DNA of 64,000 nt, taken from NCBI GenBank assembly GCA_021155905.1, contig JAJNBG010000001.1:1-64000 (forward strand). The letters run 5' to 3'. Below are positions 1 to 29,990 of this stretch, one piece after another (the first letter of the stretch is position 1; each line of letters opens with the position of its first letter). Under the pieces are notes generated by a model, which saw nothing but the letters and a program-made list of their open reading frames with translations, searched no databases and was not told the origin of the DNA. The DNA is from Bacteroidota bacterium. Its GTDB lineage: Bacteria > Bacteroidota > Bacteroidia > B-17B0 > Aurantibacillaceae. The translations under genes and the position numbers were made by a program.

Positions 1-70
1 GGGACTCGAACCCCCACCCTTGCGGACCAGATCCTAAGTCTGGCGCGGCTACCAATTACGCCACATGTGC
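1..70 (-). tRNA. tRNA-Leu (anticodon UAG), cut at the left window edge
   Basis: On the minus strand the sequence folds as a class II tRNA. The 5' end is at 70, the D arm carries TTGGTAG, and the anticodon stem CCAGA/TCTGG encloses the loop CTTAGGA with anticodon TAG (complement of 34-36), which reads the leucine codon CUA. A long variable arm precedes the T arm GGGTTCGAGTCC. The 3' acceptor strand and the last part of the T stem lie beyond position 1, so the gene is partial here. The long variable arm together with UAG makes leucine the only sensible identity. Confidence 0.93.
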
Positions 71-1778: not shown

Positions 1779-2042
1779 GGGTGTGCCCCCGCAAAAGAGA
1801 CGGCGGGGTCGGGCTGTCGCTTCAATCTTTTACGAATCACGCAAAAGGGGGTGATTCGTAAAAGGATTTCCGCTTGCATCCCTCACACGCAAAAAATTCT
1901 GTCTACAATTTACTTTCCTTTTTGAATTTCCCCGCGTGAGGGATTGAGGCTTTGCTTGAGCTCTTTTTATTTGTCCCGAAGGGCAAATAAAAAAGCGAGT
2001 GCCGAAAGCCCGACGGCGCCCGTTCTTTGCGCCGGCACGCCC
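1779..2042. repeat. 264-bp nested palindromic element
   Basis: The ends are inverted copies: gggtgtgcc at 1779-1787 and ggcacgccc at 2034-2042. Inside lie further matched arms: gtcgggct near 1808 with agcccgac near 2007; a perfect 14-bp stem cttttacgaatcac (1827-1840) / gtgattcgtaaaag (1851-1864); ccctcacacgc near 1878 against gcgtgaggg near 1935; and an A/T-rich stem around 1963-1998 closed by cccgaaggg. It fills the whole gap between kbl and the Smr gene and is more GC-rich at its ends than the neighbouring DNA. It carries no credible protein. It resembles a REP/MITE-like dispersed element or a structured RNA. The assignment is inference. Confidence 0.65.
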
Positions 2043-8587: not shown

Positions 8588-10324
8588 TTAAAATAATGCG
8601 GTTAAGCCTGCATGTATTTTACCACTTCTTAAATCAAAACCGGTATTAAACTGTTTGCCAATGGCATAGCTAAGGTTGAAAATACCTGCCTTGGTCTCAA
8701 AATTTATTCCGGCGCCTACACTCATTGGATTGTCTTTCGTATATCCGGCAACATTTCCGTTCTCATACAAAGCGCCTTCCCCGAACACAAATAAATTGGA
8801 ATTCTGTTCAAACAAAAACCGGTATTCCAGTGTAGGAATAACATAAGTAGACGCGTAAATACTTTCTTCATCAAAGCCACGTAAGGTTCTTAATCCTCCA
8901 ATACGGAATAATTCATTTTTATAAATAGTATTTCCAAACACACTGCCAAACTGGGCCGAAAGTTTGAGTACGTGATTCTTCACCGGATTCAAATAACCAA
9001 CCATTGCTCCTTCTACCTGGTATTGTGACGATTTTAAGGCAATTGTAGAATACGCCACATCATTGATCTTAGGGTTTTTACGGATCTGCCGGTTACCAAC
9101 AGAGCCCTGCGCGTTAAAACCTATCCCTTTTCTGGGATTAAAGCGGTAATCCAGGTTTTCTAAAAAAAATCCCAAACCATACGCTTTTGTAATCACATCG
9201 GCGTACTCAGGCAATACCGTAATATTTTCCAGGCCGGCCGTTGATAATAAATTTGCATTTCGCTGCTTGTAAAACACTTTGATGTAATTAAGTCCGCTAA
9301 AATAATAGTTCAATCCAAGGCCATTGTTGACATCCAGAAAGGTGCTGTCTTTTTTATAAATTTTGATATTATAATCCGCGCCTACAGGTAATCCACCAAT
9401 GTACGGGTATATCACAGAAGCTCTCAGGTCCTGCGTTTGTGTCTGCAAACGTCGCCAGTTAATGTCGAACGTTTCACCGCTTTTTAAAATATTGTTGACT
9501 AACCTGATTTTCAAGTCCCCTGTAAAAACCGTTTTTCCTTTGTCGTTTGGCAAAATTCCAACAATACCGTCAAACTGGGACGCATTCTTTTTTTCCAGGA
9601 ATAAAAATAATTTATTTTGTTTGTCTGTCAACTGAATAACAGGTGGTTTTTTTTCAGTTAAAAAAGGCAATTGTCTGATTTTTTTAGAAGCCCCCCTGAA
9701 CACCTCAGCGTTATAAGGCATTCCATTTTTGATTCCTAAATAACGCAGTAAAAACTTCTGACTCACTTTTCCGGATCCTTCGGTTACCACGCTATCCAGT
9801 TTGATAAAAAGATTCTTATCGATCCTAAGCTTTGCCCTGACATTGTTTGCATTAAATTCAAGGCTGTCTAACCTGGCAGACACAAAAGGATAGCCGTTAT
9901 TCTCGTAATACACGATGACCTTTTCCATAAACTTTGACAGTTCATTAAATCGAAAAGCACGGTTAGAAAAAAAGCGCTCGTTATACCCAATTTTACTAAT
10001 AACGCCCTGGTCCTTTTTTGAATATCTTAAATCCACCCATTTATACTTTTCACCGGCAGAAACATAGGCTTTATAATTCAAAGAATCTGGCACGATGCTG
10101 TCAATGTTTGCCGTGATGTAGCCTTCGTTGATCAGGGACACATAAATTTTGTTGATCTCGTTAAAGATAAACTCTTTGCTGTTGAACTGTTTTTTATAAG
10201 TCAGCCGCTTAAAAACACTTTGACTGTCCGTATTGACAACCTGCAATTTATAAACCAACTGTGCCTTAAAAGTGGTTACTGCAAACAATACTAAACCTAG
10301 GAAATATGTAAATTTATGTTTCAA
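8588..10324 (-). CDS. Omp85-superfamily outer-membrane protein (BamA/TamA-like)
   Basis: 578 aa. A signal peptide ending near KAQ is followed by POTRA-like modules (about 25-250; for example VIVYYENNGYPFVSARL) and a C-terminal beta-barrel with the surface-antigen signature GGLRTLRGFDEESIYAS, ending in a terminal phenylalanine. It is shorter than BamA (about 800 aa) and fits the smaller TamA-like or ShlB-like members. Expected role: insertion or secretion of outer-membrane proteins; substrate unknown. The start codon is TTG at 10324; no ATG gives a better signal peptide. It is transcribed away from lemA. Confidence 0.85.
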   Translation of the reverse strand: MKHKFTYFLGLVLFAVTTFKAQLVYKLQVVNTDSQSVFKRLTYKKQFNSKEFIFNEINKIYVSLINEGYITANIDSIVPDSLNYKAYVSAGEKYKWVDLRYSKKDQGVISKIGYNERFFSNRAFRFNELSKFMEKVIVYYENNGYPFVSARLDSLEFNANNVRAKLRIDKNLFIKLDSVVTEGSGKVSQKFLLRYLGIKNGMPYNAEVFRGASKKIRQLPFLTEKKPPVIQLTDKQNKLFLFLEKKNASQFDGIVGILPNDKGKTVFTGDLKIRLVNNILKSGETFDINWRRLQTQTQDLRASVIYPYIGGLPVGADYNIKIYKKDSTFLDVNNGLGLNYYFSGLNYIKVFYKQRNANLLSTAGLENITVLPEYADVITKAYGLGFFLENLDYRFNPRKGIGFNAQGSVGNRQIRKNPKINDVAYSTIALKSSQYQVEGAMVGYLNPVKNHVLKLSAQFGSVFGNTIYKNELFRIGGLRTLRGFDEESIYASTYVIPTLEYRFLFEQNSNLFVFGEGALYENGNVAGYTKDNPMSVGAGINFETKAGIFNLSYAIGKQFNTGFDLRSGKIHAGLTALF

Positions 10325-10473
10325 GTGTATTAGCTTCTAAGGTAATTATTTTTACCTTCACATTAAATTTTAATCCTATTAAAACAAACAGTTAAAACGT
10401 ATGAACCAATCTTTTATTACAATAAGTTAAGGATTGCAACATACTACCATTAAAAAAACAATAAACTAAAATT

Positions 10474-11064
10474 ATGAAACGTATTATTATTATAGTGGCT
10501 CTTGGAGCGGTTGCTTTATTTGCTTTAAGTTATGGTTGCAACAAGCGCAACAGCTTTGTTGATTTAAATGAAACAGTTATTTCTCAATGGCACCAGGTGG
10601 AAAGTCAATACCAACGCCGACTGGATCTGATTCCTAATATCGTGAAAACCGTGGAAGCTGAAGCTAACTTTGAAAAATCAACGTTAACTGCCGTGGTGGA
10701 AGCCCGTGCAAAAGCTACACAGGTTACCATCGACCCAAGCAATATGACACCTGAGAAAATGAATCAGTTCAAACAGGTGCAGGGCGAACTGTCTTCTGCC
10801 ATCTCCAGGTTATTAGTGGTTTCTGAAAATTACCCGAACTTAAAATCAAGCCAGGCGTTCAGCGAATTGCGTGTGGAACTGGAAGGCTGTGAAAACCGGA
10901 TTGCTGTGGAACGTATGAAATACAATGACGCCGTAAGACAATTTAACGCCAGCATCAAAAAAATTCCGGGAAGCTTATTTGCCTGGGGATACAAAGATGC
11001 TGACTATTTTGAAGCAGAAGCCGGCGCAGAAAAAGCGCCAAAGGTTGACATGAACATTAAATAG
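10474..11064 (+). CDS. lemA: LemA family protein
   Basis: 196 aa with an N-terminal hydrophobic anchor (about 3-22) and a helical body carrying the family motif WHQVESQYQRRLDLIPNIVKTV. LemA proteins are membrane-anchored helical proteins of unclear biochemical role, very often paired with TPM-domain proteins. That is the case here: the next gene starts 2 bp after this stop. The ATG follows an AT-rich leader without a clear ribosome binding site. Confidence 0.93.
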   Translation: MKRIIIIVALGAVALFALSYGCNKRNSFVDLNETVISQWHQVESQYQRRLDLIPNIVKTVEAEANFEKSTLTAVVEARAKATQVTIDPSNMTPEKMNQFKQVQGELSSAISRLLVVSENYPNLKSSQAFSELRVELEGCENRIAVERMKYNDAVRQFNASIKKIPGSLFAWGYKDADYFEAEAGAEKAPKVDMNIK

Positions 11065-11066
11065 GC

Positions 11067-11501
11067 ATGTTGTTTAAAAAGAAATTATTGTCTTCCGAAG
11101 ATGAAGAGCGCTTAATCAAAGCGATTCATGATGCCGAAAATAAAACTTCGGGTGAGATTCGCGTGCACATTGAAGCAACCTGCAAGGGTGATGCATTGGA
11201 GGCCTGTAAAAAGCTCTTTGCAGATTTAAAAATGGATCAAACCAAAGACAGGAACGGTATTTTGTTTTTCCTGGCAATAGAATCCAGGGCGTTTGCTGTT
11301 TGGGGTGATGAAGGCATTCATAAAAAAGTAACAGATGAATTCTGGGAACTTATCACTGAATGCGCCATCAGCTATTTTAAACATCATGATTTAATTGGCG
11401 GCCTTGAAAAATCCGTTGAAATGTGTGGCGAAAAGCTGCAGCTTTATTTTCCTTTGGAACATGATGATAAGGATGAACTCTCAAACGAAATTTCTTATTA
11501 A
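11067..11501 (+). CDS. Cytoplasmic TPM-domain protein
   Basis: 144 aa without a signal peptide. A TPM (TPM_phosphatase, DUF477) fold spans about 10-130: SGEIRVHIEATCKGDALEA, then the core DRNGILFFLAIESRAFAVWGD. TPM domains bind divalent metal in studied members; a phosphatase activity has been shown only for plant TLP18.3. It is the middle gene of a lemA-TPM-TPM operon, with 2 bp to lemA and no gap to the following TTG start. Confidence 0.85.
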   Translation: MLFKKKLLSSEDEERLIKAIHDAENKTSGEIRVHIEATCKGDALEACKKLFADLKMDQTKDRNGILFFLAIESRAFAVWGDEGIHKKVTDEFWELITECAISYFKHHDLIGGLEKSVEMCGEKLQLYFPLEHDDKDELSNEISY

Positions 11502-12281
11502 TTGAAAAAATTATCCCTGATACTTGCTCTTTGTATCTGCTTTTTTGCGATACCATCCTTTTCACAGGTCCCGGAAAGGCCAAGTCCGGAAAGGCTGTAC
11601 AATAATCTTTCGAAAGAGTTTCCGAATTTTCTGTCATCGCAGGAAGCCCAGCAACTGGAACAGCAACTCCAGGATTTTAGCCTTGAAACTTCCAACCAGA
11701 TTTGCATTGTGATTGTTGACGATCTCAACGGCATGGATCAGTCTTCTTTTGCGGTTGAAATTCTGAATAAATGGGGCGTTGGACAGAAAGGAAAAAACAA
11801 CGGAATTGTGATCCTGGTAAAACCTACCGGCAAATCAGGTGAGCGAAATCTGTTCATCTCGGTTGGGTACGGATTGGAGGGAGCTATTACCGACCTTCAA
11901 ACCAAGCATATCCGGGAAAACGAGATTGTTCCCTATTTTAAAGAGCAACGTTTTTACGAAGGACTGGAAGCCGGTTGCCAGGCACTGATGCTGGCCGCAA
12001 AAGGAGAATATAACGAGAAAACGCAGCCGAAAGGATCGGGCCTTGAAAATTTTGTAAGGGGCCATCCCATCCTGTTTTTAATCTGCATTGTGCTTTTCGT
12101 ACTGATCTTTATTAAAGGCGGTGGTGGCAGAGGCGGTGGCGGAAGAGGCATGACGTATTTCGGAGGCGGCTCTGCCTTTGGTGGATTTGGCGGGTTCGGA
12201 GGTGGTGGCGGTGGCGGGTCTTCTTTTGGAGGATTTGGAGGTGGTTCTGGAGGCGGAGGTGGTTCCGGTGGTAACTGGTAA
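11502..12281 (+). CDS. Exported TPM-domain membrane protein with glycine-rich tail
   Basis: 259 aa. A signal peptide (about 1-22) precedes a TPM domain (about 30-175) with KGKNNGIVILVKP and a conserved GYGLEGAITD block. One transmembrane helix follows (about 188-203, LFLICIVLFVLIF), then a roughly 55-residue low-complexity tail of glycine with a few Ser/Phe/Arg (about 205-259). This order matches the YgcG-like family that accompanies LemA. It begins with TTG directly after the stop of the preceding gene, which suggests translational coupling. Confidence 0.88.
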   Translation: MKKLSLILALCICFFAIPSFSQVPERPSPERLYNNLSKEFPNFLSSQEAQQLEQQLQDFSLETSNQICIVIVDDLNGMDQSSFAVEILNKWGVGQKGKNNGIVILVKPTGKSGERNLFISVGYGLEGAITDLQTKHIRENEIVPYFKEQRFYEGLEAGCQALMLAAKGEYNEKTQPKGSGLENFVRGHPILFLICIVLFVLIFIKGGGGRGGGGRGMTYFGGGSAFGGFGGFGGGGGGGSSFGGFGGGSGGGGGSGGNW

Positions 12282-12319
12282 TTAAAATTGTATATTTATA
12301 TTTCACAATATATTAAGCC

Positions 12320-13414
12320 ATGAAGAAATTTTTATTTTTTTTATTTTGCCTCCATATCTTTCATTTAAAAAGCCAGATTTCCATCACTTCCACCAATATG
12401 CCGGTGAGCGGTGATACCTGCAGGTACAGTAATGCCAGCCTCACCAGTATTGGTGATTATACAGCTACCGGCGCTTCCTGGGTCTGGGATTTCAGTACTT
12501 TGGATTCAACCGGACAGGATATCCGGAAATTTGTTCCTTCTTCTGTAACTCCTTATGCGTTTTATTTTGCAGGTAAGTATGGTGAAAAAACTCTGGACGA
12601 GGTGCCCATCCCTTCTATTCCCGGATTTACACTAACGATGAAAAACATCTACTCTTTTTATAAAAAGAACGGAACGGCCTCTTTTAACGCGGAGGGAGTG
12701 GGAGTTACCATCTCCAACATTCCTATCGGGGCGTCGCCGGTAGCAGGTAACGATGATGAGCTCTATGTGTTTCCGCTCAATTACATGAATCGCGATTCTA
12801 CAACCTTCAGTTTTTCCACTCCTACGGCAACTATTATTCCTTTTGCCTATAAAAAACACGGTTACCGCATAACTGAAGTAGATGGGTACGGAACCATTAA
12901 AACCCCATACGGAACTGATACCTGTATAAGGGTTGTGACCACCCAATACGCCATCGATTCTTTGATTGTTAATGCGGCACCTGCTCCTTTCAACAGGTTA
13001 GGATTTCCTAATTATGTGCGCAGTTACCAGTGGCTAACGAGAAACGAAAAAATCCCTTATTTAGAAATTTCAGGCAATATGATATTTGGTGCATTTATAC
13101 CAACGCAGGCGAGATACCGCGATATAAAAAGAAATTTTGTTGGCATTAAAGAAGAAGCGCTTAGCCTGGCATTATCGGTTTTCCCTAATCCGTCCACTCA
13201 TGACCTAACAGTAATTACACCAAAGTATGAGGGTTCCATTAAAGCCGAGCTAACGGATATGCATGGCAAGCTGGTGTTTGAAAAAACACTGGACAATAAC
13301 TCATTGATCGCAAATCAGCACCATTTAGATGTGTCTTCTTTATCGAAAGGCCTGTATATTTTAAACCTCTCGAATGTATCCGGCAAACAATCCTTAAAAA
13401 TTTCGATACAATAG
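12320..13414 (+). CDS. Secreted protein with T9SS sorting domain
   Basis: 364 aa. A signal peptide (about 1-19) precedes a beta-rich body with no recognised catalytic motif (for example GASWVWDFSTLDS). The C-terminal type A T9SS sorting domain (about 285-364) has VFPNPSTHDLTV, DMHGKLV and LSKGLYILNL. The sorting domain directs export through the outer membrane and cleavage or anchoring at the surface. The function of the body is unknown. It lies 38 bp after the TPM operon. Confidence 0.85.
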   Translation: MKKFLFFLFCLHIFHLKSQISITSTNMPVSGDTCRYSNASLTSIGDYTATGASWVWDFSTLDSTGQDIRKFVPSSVTPYAFYFAGKYGEKTLDEVPIPSIPGFTLTMKNIYSFYKKNGTASFNAEGVGVTISNIPIGASPVAGNDDELYVFPLNYMNRDSTTFSFSTPTATIIPFAYKKHGYRITEVDGYGTIKTPYGTDTCIRVVTTQYAIDSLIVNAAPAPFNRLGFPNYVRSYQWLTRNEKIPYLEISGNMIFGAFIPTQARYRDIKRNFVGIKEEALSLALSVFPNPSTHDLTVITPKYEGSIKAELTDMHGKLVFEKTLDNNSLIANQHHLDVSSLSKGLYILNLSNVSGKQSLKISIQ

Positions 13415-21812: not shown

Positions 21813-23042
21813 ATGAGAAAAATTCTACTCCTTACCTTAATAATTTCTTTAAATGTATTCTCACAATCACCCACCTTTTCTTTTCCGAAACATTTAAAAC
21901 ACTCTTCTATTGAAAATACTAAAACTCAGAACGCCTCCACTACCAGCGGTTTAAGAGACAGTTCTTACTCCTGGAATTGGGACAATGCCGGTCTTTCGTG
22001 GGGCTCCCCAACGAGAGCGATTTTTGGGTACAATACTGCCAATAAAGAAAATAGTTGCGAAAATTCTACCTGGAATGGCTCCCTATGGGATAACAATAGT
22101 CGTGTCATTAATTACCTGTTTGACGGGAGTTATAATTATCTAAGCGGAGAAAACCAGAATTGGAATGGAAGTTCCTGGATGAACTCTTATAAAACCGTAA
22201 ATACTTATGATGCGTCCAACAACCAGGTAAGTTCCACACGTCAAAACTGGAATACAGGAAATCTCTCCTGGAAAGATTATTATAGAACCGTCAATACGTT
22301 TGATGCATCCAACAATATACTAACCACAACGACCGAAACATGGAATGCCGGAGCATCTACCTGGGATAATTTTTACAAATCTACAGCTACTTATAACGGG
22401 AATAATGAGTATACAAGTTCCCTGGATCAGATCTGGAATACATCCGCCAACTCGTGGAAAAATTATAGTCAAAGTATTAATTTTGTTTACTCCGGGGGCG
22501 ACCTTCTCAGTTATGAATATGAAATGTGGAATACTGCATCACTCACTTTTGAACCATCCACAAAATCCACCACAACTTACGACGGGAATCATCATTCATT
22601 AAGCTATTTATATCAATCCTGGTCCAATTCATCCAATTCTTGGGTGGATGGGAGTAAAACAACATATACCTATGATTCCAATGGTAAGCAAATTACCTTA
22701 TTACGTCAAAGCTGGAATGCGACAGCAAGCACATGGGTAAACGCTTATCGTCAATACGATTATTACGCCTCATCTGTAACAGTTGGAATGAATGAACTAA
22801 CATCGCAAAAAAAGGTGATTGCCTACCCTAATCCTTTTGCCAACGAACTGATTATTGAAAGTATATCCGGAGACGTAAGTAGCAACTATGTACTATCGGA
22901 CGACCTTGGACGCATTGTCTTTCAGGGAACAACAAGTGATGACAAAACGATTCTTAACACTTCTGCTTTAGAAAAAGGATTTTATACCTTAACTCTTATA
23001 AATGATAAAGGCACTACCAAGTCTCAGAAATTGATCAGGTAA
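21813..23042 (+). CDS. Secreted Trp-repeat protein with T9SS sorting domain
   Basis: 409 aa. A signal peptide (about 1-18) is followed by about eight tandem repeats of roughly 31 residues (about 55-325). The pattern is WN-x5-W-x6-K/R-x4-Y-D/N-x2-N-x8-Q/E: for example WNTGNLSWKDYYRTVNTFD, WNAGASTWDNFYKSTATYN and WNATASTWVNAYRQ. A T9SS sorting domain closes the protein (about 330-409), with AYPNPFANELII and LEKGFYTLTL. The repeats recall YD/RHS-like beta-hairpin repeats but no named family is certain. Probable surface or secreted adhesive protein; function inferred only from architecture. Confidence 0.83.
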   Translation: MRKILLLTLIISLNVFSQSPTFSFPKHLKHSSIENTKTQNASTTSGLRDSSYSWNWDNAGLSWGSPTRAIFGYNTANKENSCENSTWNGSLWDNNSRVINYLFDGSYNYLSGENQNWNGSSWMNSYKTVNTYDASNNQVSSTRQNWNTGNLSWKDYYRTVNTFDASNNILTTTTETWNAGASTWDNFYKSTATYNGNNEYTSSLDQIWNTSANSWKNYSQSINFVYSGGDLLSYEYEMWNTASLTFEPSTKSTTTYDGNHHSLSYLYQSWSNSSNSWVDGSKTTYTYDSNGKQITLLRQSWNATASTWVNAYRQYDYYASSVTVGMNELTSQKKVIAYPNPFANELIIESISGDVSSNYVLSDDLGRIVFQGTTSDDKTILNTSALEKGFYTLTLINDKGTTKSQKLIR

Positions 23043-23064: not shown

Positions 23065-23096
23065 TAAAAAACCTCACAACTAGTGAGGTTTTTTTA
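23065..23096. terminator. Bidirectional terminator between convergent genes
   Basis: AAAAACCTCAC (23067-23077) / GTGAGGTTTTT (23083-23093), with A and T runs on both sides. It can end both the Trp-repeat gene (plus strand) and the kinase operon (minus strand, last gene stopping at 23150). Confidence 0.82.
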
Positions 23097-23149: not shown

Positions 23150-25510
23150 CTAAACTTCCAGTTTTTTAAGTTCCAGTTCCAGCAAGCCCTTTGCCTGCAT
23201 AAACATAGCCTCGATTTTAGAAAAGTTAGATGAAATAACATCTATTGATCCATTGTTCTGAGCCATGGTCTCAATCTCTCTTAACAAGCGAGCGGCCTCG
23301 TTCATTCCTAAGGTCAAAAATAAACCTTTCATGCTATGAGAAGTCACCTTGATTTTTCCATAATTCTTTTCGTTAATATCAGATTTCAATTGTTCTAAAA
23401 GCGGAGGCGTGTCGTGCAAACAGGTAGAAATCATGTCAATTAAAAAGTCCACGTCTCCACTTGCATGTTCTTTTATATAAGTTAGGTCATATAACTGTTC
23501 TGACTGCGTGATCTCTCCATAAATCTGAGTGGTTTCTTTTAGATCAGTTTTATTTACAAGCTGGAGAATGGTGTTTAACAGGACCCCGGAATCAAATGGC
23601 TTGGAAATGTATGCGTTCATGCCCAGGCCCAAACACTTCCTGGCTTCTTCATTGGAAGCGTGAGCTGTCAACGCAATAATAGGAATATTTTTTTTACGCT
23701 CGTCCTGTAGGCCTCTGATGATTGTGGATGCGGTATATCCATCCATTTCCGGCATCTGGATATCCATCAGCACGACGTCATAGTTGTTCTTCTCTAATAA
23801 TGTAATGGCTTCTTTTCCATTTGCGGCAATATCCATTTCGTAACCCCATTTATGAATTATTTTCTTTACCAGTTTTTGATTTAAAGGAGTGTCTTCCGCG
23901 ACCAAAATATTAATTTTTCTGCCCGGTGTTACTTTACCGTTTGCCATAGCCGTTCCGGTTTGTAGGGTATTGTCGGACACTGCCTCCTCGTTTGTTGCCT
24001 TTGTAAACGGTATATAAAACGTAAACGCAGAGCCTTTCCCTAATTCGCTTTCTACCGAAATTTTTCCACCCTGTAAGGTTAAGAGCTGCTGAACAATTGT
24101 TAAACCCAGTCCAGTTCCTCCGTACTTACGTGTTGTATCCGGAGACGCCTGTGTGAATCGTTCAAAAATAAGTCCCAGTTTATCTTTAGGAATGCCAATG
24201 CCTGTGTCTTTAATTGTAAACTCGCATAAAACAAGGCCCGCATTTACACTGATTAATTTACTGCTGATCGTAACTGTTCCTTTTTCAGTAAATTTGACAG
24301 CATTACCAACAAGATTTAATAAAATCTGGTTAAACCTGGCTGCATCGCCAATGACAGTATCGGGGATGTTTTCGTCGTGATTTAAAACCAGCTCAATGTG
24401 TTTTTCTTTGGCATTAAACTCAATCAGTTCCTTAACAGAACTCAGTGCCTGCCGGACATTTAAAGCATCAAGATTAAAATCAAATTTACCGGCTTCAATT
24501 TTAGATAAGTCCAAAATATCATTAATGATGACCAGCAGATTTTTACCAGCAAAATCAATAGATTCCACATATTCTTTCTGTTCCTCATCAAGCGTTGTGT
24601 CCTTTAATAACTTCTGAAAACCAAGAATGGCATTTAAAGGCGTTCGGATCTCATGGCTCATTGTTGCCAAAAACTGTTCCTTTGCTTTTGTAGACTGTTC
24701 TACTAAAACATTGGCTTCCACGAGCTTTTCGTTTTTCTGTGTCAGCTCGGCTGTTCTCTCTTCCACTCTCTTTTCCAATTGGCTATTCGTTTCTGATAAG
24801 ACCTGTTCGTGCTTTTCAATTTTTTCCAGCATATTGTTGAAAGCCTTCGAGAGTTTTCCAATTTCATCCGTTCCGTTATACTTAGACCGGACACTGTAAT
24901 TCATTTTTTGTATGACATCTCCCATTAAACCTGCCAAATTAATGATTGGATTAGAGATGTATTTTTGTAAAATTGCCGCCACAAAAAAGGCAATAAAAAA
25001 ACCAAAAAGAACAACTAACCCTACTATTTTTACCTTGCTATAAAATTGGCCCTTGATCTCTGTTAATTCTGTCTTTAAACAAAGGGTTCCTAACCACTCT
25101 TTATCTTTTGTAATTTGAAAATAAATAAAAAGATCATCTGATGTGAATTCTGATTCCGTAGTCTTACCGGAAGTTCTTGTAAATTCAAATTCATTTTCCC
25201 CTTGCCTTACATAATTACCGATCAGGCGCCAGGTACTATCTACTATGCAGGCATGAGTGATGTCTGTTTCTGCTTTTAAACCCATTAAAATAGAGTTTGC
25301 GGCTTCCGAATCATTAAACAACAAAGGAGCTTCAGAGTTCAGAGCAATAACCTCCGCAATGACTAACATGTTTTTGACTTTGTTTTTGCGCAAAGACACG
25401 TAATCGAAATATAAATAGGTAGAGACACAAATAACAATAGCCACCAAAAAAGTGATCATCTGCAGAACAATCAGCTTCCAATTTATTGATATATTGCTTA
25501 AAAACTTCAT
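23150..25510 (-). CDS. Hybrid histidine kinase with CHASE8-like sensor, receiver and Hpt
   Basis: 786 aa. Transmembrane helix at about 12-32, a CHASE8-like periplasmic sensor (about 33-160), a second helix (about 162-183), HAMP (about 185-235) and a coiled coil. HisKA follows with phospho-acceptor His286 in MSHEIRTPL. HATPase (about 390-505) has GIGIPKDKLG and GGTGLGLTI. A receiver carries Asp583 in LMDIQMPEMDG, and a C-terminal Hpt carries His725 in SHSMKG. All phosphorelay residues are present. The downstream response regulator is not in the window. Last gene of the minus-strand operon, 1 bp after the YfiR-like gene. CHASE8 sensors are known partners of YfiR, which fits that neighbour. Confidence 0.9.
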   Translation of the reverse strand: MKFLSNISINWKLIVLQMITFLVAIVICVSTYLYFDYVSLRKNKVKNMLVIAEVIALNSEAPLLFNDSEAANSILMGLKAETDITHACIVDSTWRLIGNYVRQGENEFEFTRTSGKTTESEFTSDDLFIYFQITKDKEWLGTLCLKTELTEIKGQFYSKVKIVGLVVLFGFFIAFFVAAILQKYISNPIINLAGLMGDVIQKMNYSVRSKYNGTDEIGKLSKAFNNMLEKIEKHEQVLSETNSQLEKRVEERTAELTQKNEKLVEANVLVEQSTKAKEQFLATMSHEIRTPLNAILGFQKLLKDTTLDEEQKEYVESIDFAGKNLLVIINDILDLSKIEAGKFDFNLDALNVRQALSSVKELIEFNAKEKHIELVLNHDENIPDTVIGDAARFNQILLNLVGNAVKFTEKGTVTISSKLISVNAGLVLCEFTIKDTGIGIPKDKLGLIFERFTQASPDTTRKYGGTGLGLTIVQQLLTLQGGKISVESELGKGSAFTFYIPFTKATNEEAVSDNTLQTGTAMANGKVTPGRKINILVAEDTPLNQKLVKKIIHKWGYEMDIAANGKEAITLLEKNNYDVVLMDIQMPEMDGYTASTIIRGLQDERKKNIPIIALTAHASNEEARKCLGLGMNAYISKPFDSGVLLNTILQLVNKTDLKETTQIYGEITQSEQLYDLTYIKEHASGDVDFLIDMISTCLHDTPPLLEQLKSDINEKNYGKIKVTSHSMKGLFLTLGMNEAARLLREIETMAQNNGSIDVISSNFSKIEAMFMQAKGLLELELKKLEV

Positions 25511-25511
25511 G

Positions 25512-26054
25512 TTAGTTTTGAATAGCTGTTGCGAGCTTTAATAACTGTGAACTGGCTTTAAGATTCGATCTGTTCAGAGACTGGATACTTATCTCAAATT
25601 TGATCCGGTTCTCAATAACTAAAAAATTTATGGCTGAACCCTGGTCTAAAAACCCCTTTCTTTCGGAAATAATCAATACGTTTTTGGTTGTTAGCTCCGA
25701 AATAAAATTTTGAAAATCTGCAGTACTAACTGTTTCCGGTACAAATAAAATCTGGCATCTACAGCCTGATGGGGTTTTTGCCCCACATTTAACAATTTCA
25801 ATTTTTTTATTATTGATAGTCTTGTTTGCTGCAAGCTCTGATAAGTGCTGCTGAATGGGCGAATCCCCAATAACTCCAATGACAAACGTTGAGGTATTAG
25901 CTTCTGATTTTTCCCACTCCACAAACTTTGTAAAATTGAATATAAAGGCGGCTTTCGCGATATACTCGCCTACCTGCGTTTTCTGCCTAATGAAAAACGA
26001 ACACAGTACGATCACCGTTAGTGAAAGAAATATGTATTCTCTTTTTTTTAGCAT
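25512..26054 (-). CDS. YfiR-family periplasmic protein (DUF4154)
   Basis: 180 aa with an N-terminal hydrophobic signal or anchor (about 7-23). Family features are YIAKAAFIFNFTKFVEW, VIGVIGDSPI, the cysteine segment CRCQILFV, and the closing NRIKFEISIQSLNRSNLKASSQLLKLA. In Pseudomonas, YfiR is a periplasmic repressor that holds the CHASE8 sensor of the diguanylate cyclase YfiN. Here the gene directly precedes a CHASE8-type hybrid kinase (1 bp gap), so the likely partner is that kinase. It is not a lipoprotein: no lipobox cysteine. Confidence 0.88.
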   Translation of the reverse strand: MLKKREYIFLSLTVIVLCSFFIRQKTQVGEYIAKAAFIFNFTKFVEWEKSEANTSTFVIGVIGDSPIQQHLSELAANKTINNKKIEIVKCGAKTPSGCRCQILFVPETVSTADFQNFISELTTKNVLIISERKGFLDQGSAINFLVIENRIKFEISIQSLNRSNLKASSQLLKLATAIQN

Positions 26055-26152
26055 CTCTATCTCTAATTTCTCTTCTTTTAATCAGTCAACTTTATTTTTA
26101 ATTGCAAGGCACGAAACTCATGAACAGGGCTTACTAAATTAATCATTAAAGT

Positions 26153-26905
26153 TTATTGGAACGTTATTCTTTCTTCCAGTTTTGGCTCTATTACTGACTT
26201 AATTATTACATATTCTTTAAGGATACTTGCCATGTCTTCTCCTGTATATTCCTTCAAACTATTGGATATTTTCCTTAACGTTGTGTAGCCGTCGTTTCCT
26301 TCCGCTGTAAAATCCGGAACTGCGACTTTATATAAAGTCAGATTATCGTATTCTACATTATTAATCTTTATTGAAACGACCCGGCTTCCCTGAGTCATAA
26401 TTTCGGTTTCATCAATATTCAAAACCTGGGCGGCTTGCGTTGTATCCACAACTATTTTTACCTCTTTGGATAATTGCATGAAGTTGCCTTTTGCCAGGGG
26501 ATATTTTGCCACCGACCGTTCTAAAATTTCTTTTAATTGCTTACCCGTTACCGTTACGATCACATAAGTACCTCCAAAAGGTAACATTTCATCAGCCATT
26601 CCGGCTGTAAAATCACCGGCCTTATAGATGCCATCGGTTCGGGTGGAACTGCTGAAACGAATACTCCCGCTGTTTACCAAGGCAAGATTAACGGCCTTGT
26701 TTTTAGCTTCATAATCATTTCTTATTGCATCAGCAATCATGTTTCCAATTAAGGATTCACGTTTTCTTACAACCAATTCGTTTGCATCCAAATCAACAAC
26801 CAGTTGTCCTATCACACTGGTTTTTGGTTCCCGGTTTTTTGGTTTGCATGAATTAAAAAAATCCGACAATACAAAAATTAAGACGCCTACGAGTATTGTT
26901 CTCAT
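26153..26905 (-). CDS. Lipoprotein consisting of a 5'-nucleotidase C-terminal domain, copy B
   Basis: 250 aa. The signal peptide ends at a probable lipid-attachment cysteine near residue 20 (FFNSC). The whole mature protein is a 5'-nucleotidase C-terminal (substrate-binding) domain: GNMIADAIRNDY, NSGSIR, DEMLPFGGTYVIVTVTGKQLKE and EGNDGYTTL. In CD73/UshA-type enzymes these motifs hold the nucleoside base between two aromatic rings (Phe of PFG, Tyr/Phe of GDGY/F) and the phosphate by arginine. The metallophosphatase domain that does catalysis is absent. So it should bind, not cleave, unless another protein supplies the catalytic half. Tandem paralogue of the next upstream gene. Confidence 0.85.
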   Translation of the reverse strand: MRTILVGVLIFVLSDFFNSCKPKNREPKTSVIGQLVVDLDANELVVRKRESLIGNMIADAIRNDYEAKNKAVNLALVNSGSIRFSSSTRTDGIYKAGDFTAGMADEMLPFGGTYVIVTVTGKQLKEILERSVAKYPLAKGNFMQLSKEVKIVVDTTQAAQVLNIDETEIMTQGSRVVSIKINNVEYDNLTLYKVAVPDFTAEGNDGYTTLRKISNSLKEYTGEDMASILKEYVIIKSVIEPKLEERITFQ

Positions 26906-26954
26906 TCTAAAAATTTATTATTCTTATCGGCTTTATAAATATTTAATTACAAAA

Positions 26955-27707
26955 TTACTGAAACACTATTCGTCCTTCCAATTTAGGACTGATGGGTGTT
27001 TTGGTTATTACGTATTCCTTTAGCGCATTTGCCTGATCCTCGCCAATGTATTCTTTCAACTCATTTGGAATAGTTTTAAATGTTACATAGCCATCGTTCC
27101 CTTCCGCTATAAAATTCGATGTGCCTACCCTGTACTCTTTAAGTGAATCAATAGAAATGCTGTTATACTTAATGGAAACTATTCTGTTTCCGGGGGACAC
27201 TATACTGGCATTATTAATGTCTAAAACCTGTGGGGGTTGGGTTGTATCAATAACAATTTGCAGTTCTTTAGAAACCTGAAGAAATGCTCCCTGGGTTAAA
27301 GGATATTGTGCCAAAGACCTTTCAAACACTTCTTTTAACTGTTTGCCCGTCATTCTTACAATTGCAAGAGTGTTTCCAAATGGCAGCATTTCATCTACCA
27401 TTTCGGCGGTAAAATCACCCGCGCCATAAATTCCATTTGGACGCTTCGTTTCACTAAACCTCATGCCTCCACCGTTGGAAATAACAAAATCAACCGGTTT
27501 GCCTTTGTTTTCCAGGTCATCTTTAAATGCATCGATAATCATGTTCCCCATCACGGCTTCCTTTTTCCGTACAACTGCTCTATTGGCATCTAAATCAACC
27601 GATAACGTTCCCAAAACATTAGCCTGAGGTGAACGATCTCTCTTTCTGCAAGAGCCGGTGAAAAGCAGCGCGCCAAAAATCAAAACAACTATATAATATC
27701 CTTTCAT
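26955..27707 (-). CDS. Lipoprotein consisting of a 5'-nucleotidase C-terminal domain, copy A
   Basis: 250 aa, the same length as its downstream paralogue. Lipobox FTGSC (cysteine near residue 20) followed by a basic stretch. The single domain carries GNMIIDAFKDDL, ISNGGGMRFS, DEMLPFGNTLAIVRMTGKQLKE and EGNDGYVTF, the binding-pocket motifs of 5'-nucleotidase C-terminal domains. There is no DxH/GNH(D/E) metallophosphatase motif in this protein or elsewhere in the operon. Its start codon abuts the stop of the TonB-dependent receptor, so the two are surely co-transcribed. Confidence 0.86.
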   Translation of the reverse strand: MKGYYIVVLIFGALLFTGSCRKRDRSPQANVLGTLSVDLDANRAVVRKKEAVMGNMIIDAFKDDLENKGKPVDFVISNGGGMRFSETKRPNGIYGAGDFTAEMVDEMLPFGNTLAIVRMTGKQLKEVFERSLAQYPLTQGAFLQVSKELQIVIDTTQPPQVLDINNASIVSPGNRIVSIKYNSISIDSLKEYRVGTSNFIAEGNDGYVTFKTIPNELKEYIGEDQANALKEYVITKTPISPKLEGRIVFQ

Positions 27708-29831
27708 TTATAGCTTATATTTTAAAAGAAGCATTACTGTTGTTCCCGGTTGTAACATACCTTTTGTTCCATAAGCATTAATGTTTGTAGACTCGTCCGG
27801 AGCGCTGTATTTTGCTCCAACATTATTTAACTGGACTTTGGCTGATATTTTTTGGGTAAACGCATAACCTACATTAAAATTTCCCTGCACATAAAAAGGA
27901 ATATCGGCGAAATGGTCCTGTTCCAAATAAAATCTGTTATTGTTGAAGGCCTCGTTTCCGTAATTGGCTCCGGCAAACAAACTAAGTTTCTTTATCTTAA
28001 GTTCTACCCCGGCATTCAATCTCAATGTTGGGATATTGGTCATGTTTTTAAAATAATCTGGCTGCTTCTCGAAAAAAGCAACATCAGATTTTTTTACTTT
28101 CTCTTTATTCCATTCGAATGTGCTTAAATATTGAGAGTAGTTAATAAAGAAATTCATTTTATTCGGTAACAGACTCACTACTAATTCTGCTTCGTTTCCA
28201 AACGTTTTGATGTTACCTATATTTTCATATACTCCAATGCTTCCGCCTCCATGCGGGTCATAAATCCTGATTAAATTTTTATGTTCTACATAAAAGACAT
28301 TATAATTTAATACGATTTTATTATACGTAATTTTTGTTCCCAGTTCAAATGTGCTGATTTTTTCAGGAGTCAGATTTACGTTTCCTTTTACACCATATTC
28401 GTTACCAATTGTAGTATTGTCATACAGCTCCTGGAACGTTGGTGCCCTGAACGCTTTGCCATACAAGCCTTTAAAGAGCAAGTGGGAAGAAACCTTATAG
28501 TTTACACCAATTCTCGGATTAAATGATGAGCCAAAATCGCTATAATCATCGTGGCGAAGGCCCGCAGTAATATTAAATTCTTTTATTTTATAATTACCCT
28601 GCAAAAAATAGGCAACGATATAACGCCGTTTACCATCCTGTGTAAATTCAATATTATCATAGTTAGCAAAAGATTCTTTATACACATCACCAACTATTTT
28701 ATAATTTCTGGTCAAGCTATAATTCGACATAGATAGGTCTTCAAATACGGTTCCGGTTAATAGATCAAAATGCTCGTTAGCTTTTATATAGATATCCATT
28801 TCGGCACCATAAGTTTTTCCCAGGTAGCTTTCCTTAGAATATTTTCCGTTTTCAAAAATATTTCCGGAAGTATTGGAAACATAATGATTTGGCGTTTCCT
28901 GAGTTAAAAAATCACGGTAATTTACATTACTATAGATCTTTGGGGTCACAATAACATTATCACTTATTTTAAAATCGTAATGTAAAGAACTTGACATTTG
29001 GTTAGTAAGTAACTTTGATCCGGGTGCTGCAATAAAAACGGGTCCTATATATGTGCCTTGTTGCCTTGCAATATCAAAAATTTGAAAATGAAAATCTCCG
29101 ACCTTAAGATTGCTGTTTAAATAGACATCTCTGTTCCAGCGGTTTGTTTTATAATTTGCATCTGCATGAGTAAGACTCCAGGATTGAGCCTCTACCTTAT
29201 CAGAAACTATTTCTGCATTAGCTCCATCCGTTGTTAAACCTCCCACCGAAACGTTAAATTGCGTTTTGTCTTTTTCCAGAAAATAATTTGCGTTTAATTT
29301 TAATGTATTATAATTTCCGCCCAAAACAGAAATTGAAGTTTCTTTTATTGTGAAAATATTAATGACTCCCGCAATCGCGTTATTTCCGTAGAGCGCAGAA
29401 CCGGGACCCCTGATCACTTCTATTCTTTCAATAAAATCCACAGATAAATCAAGCAATGCCCTTCCATCATAAAAATCATTTACCTGCTGGCCATTAATTA
29501 GGACTAAAACTTCTCCCTCCTTGTTAGCGCCTCTGATGGAAATGTGATAAAACCCATCCGCCCCCATACTTGTTTCAATGCCGGGTATGTATTTAAACAC
29601 ATCTATAAGCGTTATTGCTCCCAATGTTGCTATTTGACTGTGAGAAATTGTGGTCATTATAGCAGGTGCCTCGCTTTGTCGTTCCAGCTTTCGCGAAGCG
29701 CTATAGACATCAATATCCAATAATTGCTCTAAGGTTAATTCACCGATATTAGGCAATGTTCCTGCCGTATCTGTCTGAGAAGACAAAAGCGAGGTTAAAA
29801 AAACAAAAACAGACAAATATAGTTTTTTCAT
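27708..29831 (-). CDS. TonB-dependent outer-membrane receptor
   Basis: 707 aa. A signal peptide (about 1-19) precedes a short N-terminal segment LTLEQLLDIDVYSASRK, typical of receptors found with YfiR. The plug domain (about 55-165) has VLVLINGQQVND, IERIEVIRGPGSALYGNNAIAGVINI. A 22-strand-type barrel follows, with FRAPTFQELYDN and a C-terminal hydrophobic strand. No CarboxypepD_reg N-terminal extension is present, so it is not a SusC type. First gene of the operon with the nucleotidase-C lipoproteins, YfiR and the kinase. The ligand is unknown; a nucleotide or nucleoside is suggested only by the lipoproteins. Confidence 0.9.
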   Translation of the reverse strand: MKKLYLSVFVFLTSLLSSQTDTAGTLPNIGELTLEQLLDIDVYSASRKLERQSEAPAIMTTISHSQIATLGAITLIDVFKYIPGIETSMGADGFYHISIRGANKEGEVLVLINGQQVNDFYDGRALLDLSVDFIERIEVIRGPGSALYGNNAIAGVINIFTIKETSISVLGGNYNTLKLNANYFLEKDKTQFNVSVGGLTTDGANAEIVSDKVEAQSWSLTHADANYKTNRWNRDVYLNSNLKVGDFHFQIFDIARQQGTYIGPVFIAAPGSKLLTNQMSSSLHYDFKISDNVIVTPKIYSNVNYRDFLTQETPNHYVSNTSGNIFENGKYSKESYLGKTYGAEMDIYIKANEHFDLLTGTVFEDLSMSNYSLTRNYKIVGDVYKESFANYDNIEFTQDGKRRYIVAYFLQGNYKIKEFNITAGLRHDDYSDFGSSFNPRIGVNYKVSSHLLFKGLYGKAFRAPTFQELYDNTTIGNEYGVKGNVNLTPEKISTFELGTKITYNKIVLNYNVFYVEHKNLIRIYDPHGGGSIGVYENIGNIKTFGNEAELVVSLLPNKMNFFINYSQYLSTFEWNKEKVKKSDVAFFEKQPDYFKNMTNIPTLRLNAGVELKIKKLSLFAGANYGNEAFNNNRFYLEQDHFADIPFYVQGNFNVGYAFTQKISAKVQLNNVGAKYSAPDESTNINAYGTKGMLQPGTTVMLLLKYKL

Positions 29832-29959: not shown

Positions 29960-29990
29960 ACAAAAGCCCCGATAAAATTTATCGGGGCTC
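29960..29990 (-). terminator. Terminator of the minus-strand lipoprotein gene
   Basis: AGCCCCGATAAA (29965-29976) / TTTATCGGGGCT (29978-29989). Read on the minus strand, the stem is followed by ttttgtttttt. It lies just after the stop at 30011. Confidence 0.8.

Follow-up and report, generated by a model that had tools for sequence, protein, structure and literature searches.

A nucleotidase-derived lipoprotein encoded between a TonB-dependent receptor and a YfiR-CHASE8 kinase in uncultured Bacteroidota: a possible sensor of nucleotide-like molecules

The window analysed comprised the 64,000 nucleotides at positions 1 to 64,000 of contig JAJNBG010000001.1 (Bacteroidota bacterium, GenBank assembly GCA_021155905.1). 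Within it, five open reading frames lie in a row on the minus strand. In the direction of transcription these encode a TonB-dependent receptor (27708..29831; 707 aa, with Plug at residues 52-156 and beta-barrel at 222-671 in Pfam), two predicted lipoproteins that each comprise the 5'-nucleotidase C-terminal (substrate-binding) domain alone (NucC1, 26955..27707, 250 aa, with the candidate lipidated residue Cys20; NucC2, 26153..26905, 250 aa), a YfiR-like periplasmic protein (25512..26054; 180 aa) and a hybrid histidine kinase (23150..25510; 786 aa, CHASE8-HAMP-HisKA-HATPase_c-receiver-Hpt). The intergenic gaps from receptor to kinase are 0, 49, 98 and 1 bp. The shared strand, the spacing and the gene names had all been given in a preliminary description; the open reading frame list agreed with the first two, and Pfam matches above cut-off bore out the names, including the receiver and Hpt domains of the CHASE8 kinase.

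Terminator-like hairpins were found on both sides of the five genes. One (29964..29990, minus strand; 12 pairs, 6 G-C, T-rich tail) lies 3' of the gene upstream of the operon. The other (23066..23094; 12 pairs, 4 G-C) lies 3' of the kinase gene and was reported on the plus strand; its minus strand also reads into a T-run. Hairpins bounding the receptor and kinase genes are compatible with a single transcription unit, from which the five genes would be co-transcribed; the terminator scan of the region returned 8 such sites against 4.4 expected by chance. Sites in the promoter scan were no commoner than chance (25 against 22.9). Elsewhere in the window, a protein whose C terminus carries a type IX secretion signal is encoded at 21813-23042 (plus strand), convergent with the kinase gene, and a small RNA of the Flavo-1 family was matched at 1803-1895 (minus strand; 51 bits, gathering threshold 42). 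A tRNA match at 1-70 (minus strand; 36 bits) is cut off by the window start, and no tRNA was called within the window by ARAGORN.

NucC1 and NucC2 matched the 5_nucleotid_C family at 111.0 and 102.5 bits respectively (Pfam curated cut-off 23.6). The two proteins are 55% identical and were therefore treated as a tandem duplicate; the NucC tree leaves the date of the duplication unplaced. No SusD-type domain was matched in either lipoprotein, and no OmpA_C-type domain was matched in these or the other operon proteins (Pfam). An N-terminal hydrophobic stretch is followed by a cysteine kept in all nine NucC copies collected, as expected for a lipoprotein; the residues ahead of the cysteine are unlike the textbook lipobox consensus, those of NucC2 departing furthest from it. 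The surface-export signal of Bacteroidetes lipoproteins has been described as C-X-K-(D/E)2 after the lipidated cysteine (PMC5080379). The exact signal is present in two of the nine copies (L051 and L052) and missing from seven, among them the window pair (C-RKRD and C-KPKN) and the L032 copy (C-RKKP); the rule was derived from other Bacteroidetes and may not apply to these hosts. Since the window copies are without the signal, it appears somewhat more likely that they capture ligand from the periplasm, where YfiB acts in Pseudomonas, than from the cell surface, and a receptor acting as ligand importer would make sense beside a periplasm-facing NucC. The signal in L051 and L052 speaks against this reading. 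The NucC frame of L048 (10099-10743, plus strand) stops early and its tail leaves the family after about residue 183, which may mean that the gene is disrupted or that the assembly is faulty here.

Searches were also made for a catalytic partner. No Metallophos domain was found in NucC1 or NucC2 (Pfam), nor at E 0.001 on any of the eight operon contigs, two of which are short (12.8 and 3.2 kb). Across the eight genomes there were 19 nucleotidase C-domain matches, nine of them operon NucCs. Seven of the ten non-operon C-domains adjoin a Metallophos gene and two share a frame with a Metallophos domain; the tenth (G023:C43:99795-100232) lies in a 583-aa frame without a Metallophos match at E 0.001. 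Because a C-domain gene stands beside a metallophosphatase gene in seven of the eight genomes, split domains are usual in these bacteria. The operon NucC is unusual, judged by its gene neighbourhood, in that the substrate-holding domain is retained without an adjacent cutting domain. In genome G924 (86% complete) the sole C-domain match is that of the operon, and a 308-aa metallophosphatase frame (G924:C95:10396-11043), similar in size to the split enzymes of the other genomes, has no C-domain beside it. The genome being incomplete, the missing C-domain partner may simply lie in a gap; the arrangement would also suit an enzyme working in trans with NucC.

The substrate pocket was compared with that of CD73. 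According to PMC8677862, Phe417 and Phe500 of CD73 stack the base of AMP, Asn390 and Asp506 hold the ribose, and Arg354 and Arg395 hold the phosphate; riboflavin and caffeine occupy the same aromatic clamp in CD73 crystals. By HMMER alignment these residues correspond, in the same order, to F110, F199, N78, D205, R47 and R83 of NucC1, and all six are identical in both window NucCs. R47, N78, R83 and D205 do not vary in the eight full-length copies, a count from which the short L048 row was excluded. Position 199 holds Phe in five of these copies and Tyr in three, and position 110 holds Phe in all but L047, which has Leu. Four of the six pocket sites are therefore invariant against 44 of 220 positions overall (p = 0.016), a modest enrichment. 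The shortened L048 protein has Ile for the pocket Asn and lacks the C-terminal part; its last letters are out of register in the pocket alignment tables. As for the nucleotidases encoded elsewhere in the window genome, Tyr replaces both the first Arg and the second stacking Phe in the split one, and the fused one keeps two of the six pocket residues. The kept residues point to a preserved pocket and are not proof of a sensor, as working nucleotidases share the same residues. The earlier guess at a nucleotide or nucleoside ligand thus gains real support from the contact residues kept in both lipoproteins, with binding itself predicted from residue identity.

Sequence comparison gave E 8.4e-20 for NucC against the Thermus 5'-nucleotidase and about 1e-18 against CD73. 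An AlphaFold model of NucC, built with nine sequences, was of middling quality, with a mean pLDDT of 73.5; residues 201-210, which contain D205, averaged 53. In the best 50 of its 172 structural matches the model matched 5'-nucleotidases, with TM-scores by query of 0.56 to 0.67; one of these, titled only 'TB19 complex', is a CD73 entry.

The receptor matched Plug at 78.0 bits and the TonB barrel at 132.4 bits, both above the curated cut-offs. Neither an STN signalling domain nor a FecR-type protein was matched among the five operon proteins (Pfam). Profile comparison with the PDB placed CirA, PhuR and BtuB best, mainly over the plug region (profile positions 44-208). The substrates of these three receptors are larger than nucleotides. 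Models of heme, B12 and siderophore receptors matched far below their cut-offs, and the receptor was therefore assigned no ligand. Receptor and nucC are adjacent in all eight loci, at a spacing of -4 to 11 bp in seven. As read off the drawn tree, all eight receptors linked to NucC group in a single clade (support 100/100) against 11 others; L051_4 and L052_7 in that tree are unrelated upstream receptors. At L032 a second, distantly related TonB receptor (10143-12383, minus strand; 746 aa) lies between NucC and YfiR, in the place occupied by NucC2 in the window.

The YfiR-like protein matched the YfiR/HmsC-like family DUF4154 (PF13689) at 131.6 bits (cut-off 24.9), and matched the PDB YfiR at E 0.0018 over query residues 39-176. 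The kinase matched CHASE8 (PF17152) at 51.1 bits (cut-off 27) and Hpt at 31.4 bits (cut-off 24.6); HAMP only just passed (25.2 against 25), and HisKA, HATPase_c and Response_reg were above cut-off. We take H286 of HisKA, D583 of the receiver and H725 of Hpt to be the phosphorylated residues, from their motifs. In P. aeruginosa, YfiR F162 and the AAVVF motif of YfiN have been named as binding surfaces (PMC3375315, Malone and colleagues). F162 aligns with F153 of the window protein, an equation made through PDB chain numbering, and this Phe is kept in all eight NucC-linked YfiRs. CHASE8 is likewise above cut-off in all eight NucC-linked proteins. The counterpart of AAVVF reads APLLF in the window and STLQF in L048, looser than AAVVF; its final F is kept in all 11 aligned proteins, a set that includes three from loci lacking NucC, the motif having been chosen by eye in an alignment without YfiN. 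Kinase outputs vary. Receiver and Hpt are above cut-off in the window, L032, L051, L052 and L054 kinases; the L048 kinase has a receiver and no Hpt called, the L047 kinase has five PAS stretches and no receiver, and no output domain is seen in L056 before the contig ends.

The YfiR tree gave a weaker result. A branch with support 75/88 (76% of bootstraps) separates the eight NucC-linked YfiRs from 18 others; in the drawn tree, with a midpoint root and weak forks, seven of the eight share a fork that leaves out L047. From the receptor clade and this branch, joint inheritance of receptor, NucC, YfiR and sensor seems likely. A second YfiR of the window genome (L045, G000:C57, 6812-10072) has a TPR-like protein and a HAMP-SpoIIE phosphatase as neighbours and no CHASE8 kinase; it does not belong to the NucC system. 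Three genes of the sizes seen at L045, where the domains were checked, recur in L033, L034, L039, L040, L041, L043 and L044.

The order receptor-NucC-YfiR-CHASE8 was found in all eight genomes with a NucC profile match (E 1e-20 or 1e-25), the window genome included, in four genera and three families of Bacteroidota. Gaps across the eight loci are -4 to 98 bp, apart from a 270-bp gap in L047. The L056 contig, 3.2 kb long, breaks off within the receptor gene at one end and, at the other, just past the region of the last gene that encodes CHASE8 and HAMP. The preliminary description had named conservation of its five-gene order as a check and would have been undone by an order found only here. 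Four genes in this order recur in seven other genomes, so the arrangement exceeds chance; the second NucC copy is present only in the window, as a local duplication, and the conserved unit contains one NucC lipoprotein. Ten proteins flanking the NucC operons were scanned and none was an evident nucleotide-scavenging gene. At L048 a folD-type gene and a gene with an AIR-synthase domain, both biosynthetic and absent from the other flanks scanned, adjoin the operon.

The related loci were collected in several ways. A YfiR search of 60 relatives led to L032, from the same family and another genus, with 60% (receptor), 54% (NucC), 59% (YfiR) and 60% (kinase) identity to the window proteins; neighbourhoods were read for 20 of the 68 YfiR matches, picked mostly by score. 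A three-row NucC profile at E 1e-20 matched, among 395 genomes of the class, the window genome, G251 and G164, and at E 1e-25 matched two of 87 family genomes (the window genome and G023); no match was obtained in 19 genomes of the same genus. With a five-row profile the window genome alone was matched among 395 genomes of the phylum, and the window genome and G023 among 87 of the order. A nine-row profile matched three of 36 genomes of the G251 family (L047, L051 and L052) and three of 240 of the G164 family (L048, L054 and L056). These counts allow for misses, as at most 6 candidates were scored per genome in the class and phylum searches and 11 in one nine-row search. A pattern scan of genome contigs with NucC2 alone gave no match. 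A search by receptor alignment, of limited recall as it used two short peptide patterns, gave eight loci, all from metagenome-assembled records and seven with NucC, YfiR and a CHASE8 protein; the eighth, the weakly matching L057 (29% over 108 residues), has neither NucC nor YfiR. Three of the handles are duplicates: L050 stands for the record of L032, L053 for that of L047 and L055 for that of L048. The NucC operon is rare and patchy in distribution.

The gene before YfiR varies among related loci. NucC directly precedes YfiR in seven of the eight NucC operons, the exception being L032. At L027, L028 and L030, receptor, YfiR and kinase occur without NucC and the TonB receptor lies directly before YfiR; at L029 only a 172-aa receptor fragment occupies that place. 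At L031 (5460-12157, plus strand) a sigma-54 response regulator, a PD40-OmpA protein, YfiR and a kinase lie in a row, a YfiB-like version with a candidate target regulator adjoining. The PD40-OmpA protein directly before YfiR and kinase indicates that the gene in this place can encode an input protein of the outer membrane; because PD40-OmpA, TonB receptor or NucC precedes YfiR at these loci, NucC is proposed in YfiB's place, with a ligand pocket as an addition.

YfiB of Pseudomonas, a lipoprotein of the outer membrane, frees the membrane protein YfiN by sequestering YfiR (PMC4887326). We propose, tentatively and at a little under even confidence, that the NucC operon encodes an outside-in system of the YfiBNR type, in which a decapitated 5'-nucleotidase replaces YfiB as the input to YfiR and a kinase provides the output. 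The proposal was built on gene order, domain content, the conserved pocket, the lack of a catalytic partner in the operon and the conserved interface residues; from these we infer ligand binding and identity, the NucC-YfiR contact, the orientation of NucC, the sign of the effect and the output target. The TonB-dependent receptor would bring the ligand to or across the outer membrane, where NucC, as an outer-membrane lipoprotein, would bind it. The ligand would most likely be a nucleoside monophosphate, or a similar molecule with a base and a phosphate, which NucC could not cleave without a catalytic metallophosphatase domain. Whether NucC is loaded or empty would decide its hold on YfiR, as YfiB does in Pseudomonas. 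Free YfiR would bind the CHASE8 sensor and set kinase activity, and the signal would pass from H286 through D583 to H725, and finally to a response regulator whose gene lies elsewhere. The relay from lipoprotein through YfiR to kinase is that of the preliminary description, and agrees, by analogy, with the YfiBNR literature and the kept interface residues. That this former nucleotidase serves as an outer-membrane sensor of extracellular, TonB-imported nucleotides, signalling through YfiR to the phosphorelay as an input unrelated to YfiB, is held with slightly more reserve again. The Leu in place of a base-stacking Phe in L047 counts against the proposal, as does L032, where a TonB receptor and not NucC adjoins YfiR.

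NucC might instead be a SusD-like surface lipoprotein that captures nucleotides or similar ligands and passes them to the receptor, a part of transport and not of signalling, with YfiR and the kinase separately regulating uptake or other genes. The adjacency of receptor and nucC in every locus, with close spacing in seven of the eight, and the exact export signal (PMC5080379) of the L051 and L052 copies argue for such a role; it appears unlikely to us, as the other seven copies, both window ones included, are without the exact signal and no SusD-type domain was matched, with the reservation that the export rule comes from other Bacteroidetes. Under the proposed circuit the ligand could also be another stacked-ring phosphate, such as a cofactor with a nucleotide part, imported by the TonB receptor. 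Riboflavin and caffeine bind the aromatic clamp of CD73 (PMC8677862). The receptor profile is closest in the PDB to the large-substrate receptors; those matches cover mainly the plug region and name no ligand, and both phosphate Arg residues and the ribose Asn and Asp are kept, making the full nucleoside monophosphate set, so that a cofactor ligand is distinctly improbable.

Marginally less probable than a cofactor ligand is that NucC is the substrate half of a split 5'-nucleotidase whose metallophosphatase is encoded elsewhere, the whole being a scavenging unit under kinase control. A C-domain gene with a metallophosphatase gene next to it is present in seven of the eight genomes, which makes a split enzyme a familiar arrangement in these hosts, and the solitary 308-aa frame of the incomplete G924 genome could supply a partner; nine of the ten non-operon C-domains are already partnered, seven by an adjacent gene and two in the same frame, and the operon contigs, two of them short, gave no Metallophos match. 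There is very little likelihood that NucC binds no ligand and serves only to anchor YfiR at the outer membrane, or is carried along as a passenger. The shortened L048 frame and the stacking residue missing from L047 would suit such a protein; the presence of NucC in all eight loci and the four polar pocket residues invariant in the eight full-length copies speak against it. The sensor proposal is preferred on this balance.

Some uncultured Bacteroidota thus carry the nucleotide-holding half of a nucleotidase beside a receptor and a YfiR-linked kinase, which suggests a sensor of nucleotide-like molecules. Were the proposal correct, the substrate-holding domain of an enzyme would have been reused as a receptor, and a TonB receptor would feed into a two-component system by a path that bypasses FecR. 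GMP has reportedly been found to act on YfiBNR; this was not used as evidence. The input to YfiR is described in PMC4887326 as an unidentified cell stress, and an input protein with a recognisable ligand pocket would make what YfiR systems detect directly testable.

Parts of this arrangement are already recognised, namely TonB receptor-YfiR-kinase neighbourhoods (NCBIfam) and, as described in PMC3375315, kinase outputs of YfiR. No report of a 5'-nucleotidase C-domain with YfiR was found among open-licence PMC papers, and the NucC input to a YfiR-CHASE8 core appears new. Like the C-domain protein of the split 5'-nucleotidases of Bacteroidota (as at L046), NucC stands alone at about 250 aa, whereas the split form lies beside a metallophosphatase gene (seven loci) and the operon NucC does so in none of the eight genomes. 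With CD73 and UshA-type 5'-nucleotidases it shares the C-terminal domain, by sequence and by model, and the AMP pocket; it differs in having no catalytic metallophosphatase domain, in its predicted lipid anchor and in its setting in a putative signalling operon. Unlike a SusC/SusD pair, the operon has no SusD domain and its window NucCs are without C-X-K-(D/E)2, and unlike FecR/TonB-transducer surface signalling it has neither an STN domain nor a FecR-type protein.

Three of the four gene types are those of the TOL_0244 receptor, TOL_0243 YfiR and YfiR-associated kinase neighbourhood (NCBIfam NF053590, NF053591 and NF053592). The window YfiR just passes its NCBIfam model (125.2 against 125 bits), and the other two miss their cut-offs, the receptor with 122.2 of the required 645 bits and the kinase with 162.4 of 194; the nucleotidase lipoprotein is an addition that the NCBIfam family names do not mention. 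YfiR-YfiN cores have been described as modular in input and output, with histidine kinases able to replace GGDEF, and YfiB as absent from almost all divergent YfiR-YfiN systems (PMC3375315). The NucC operon resembles YfiBNR of Pseudomonas aeruginosa and its relatives in placing YfiR beside a CHASE8 membrane sensor, with the key interface positions kept, and in having an outer-membrane lipoprotein as the likely input to YfiR. It differs in that the lipoprotein is a nucleotidase C-domain and not an OmpA/Pal-like YfiB, that a TonB receptor lies within the operon, and that the output is a histidine kinase with receiver and Hpt in place of a GGDEF diguanylate cyclase.
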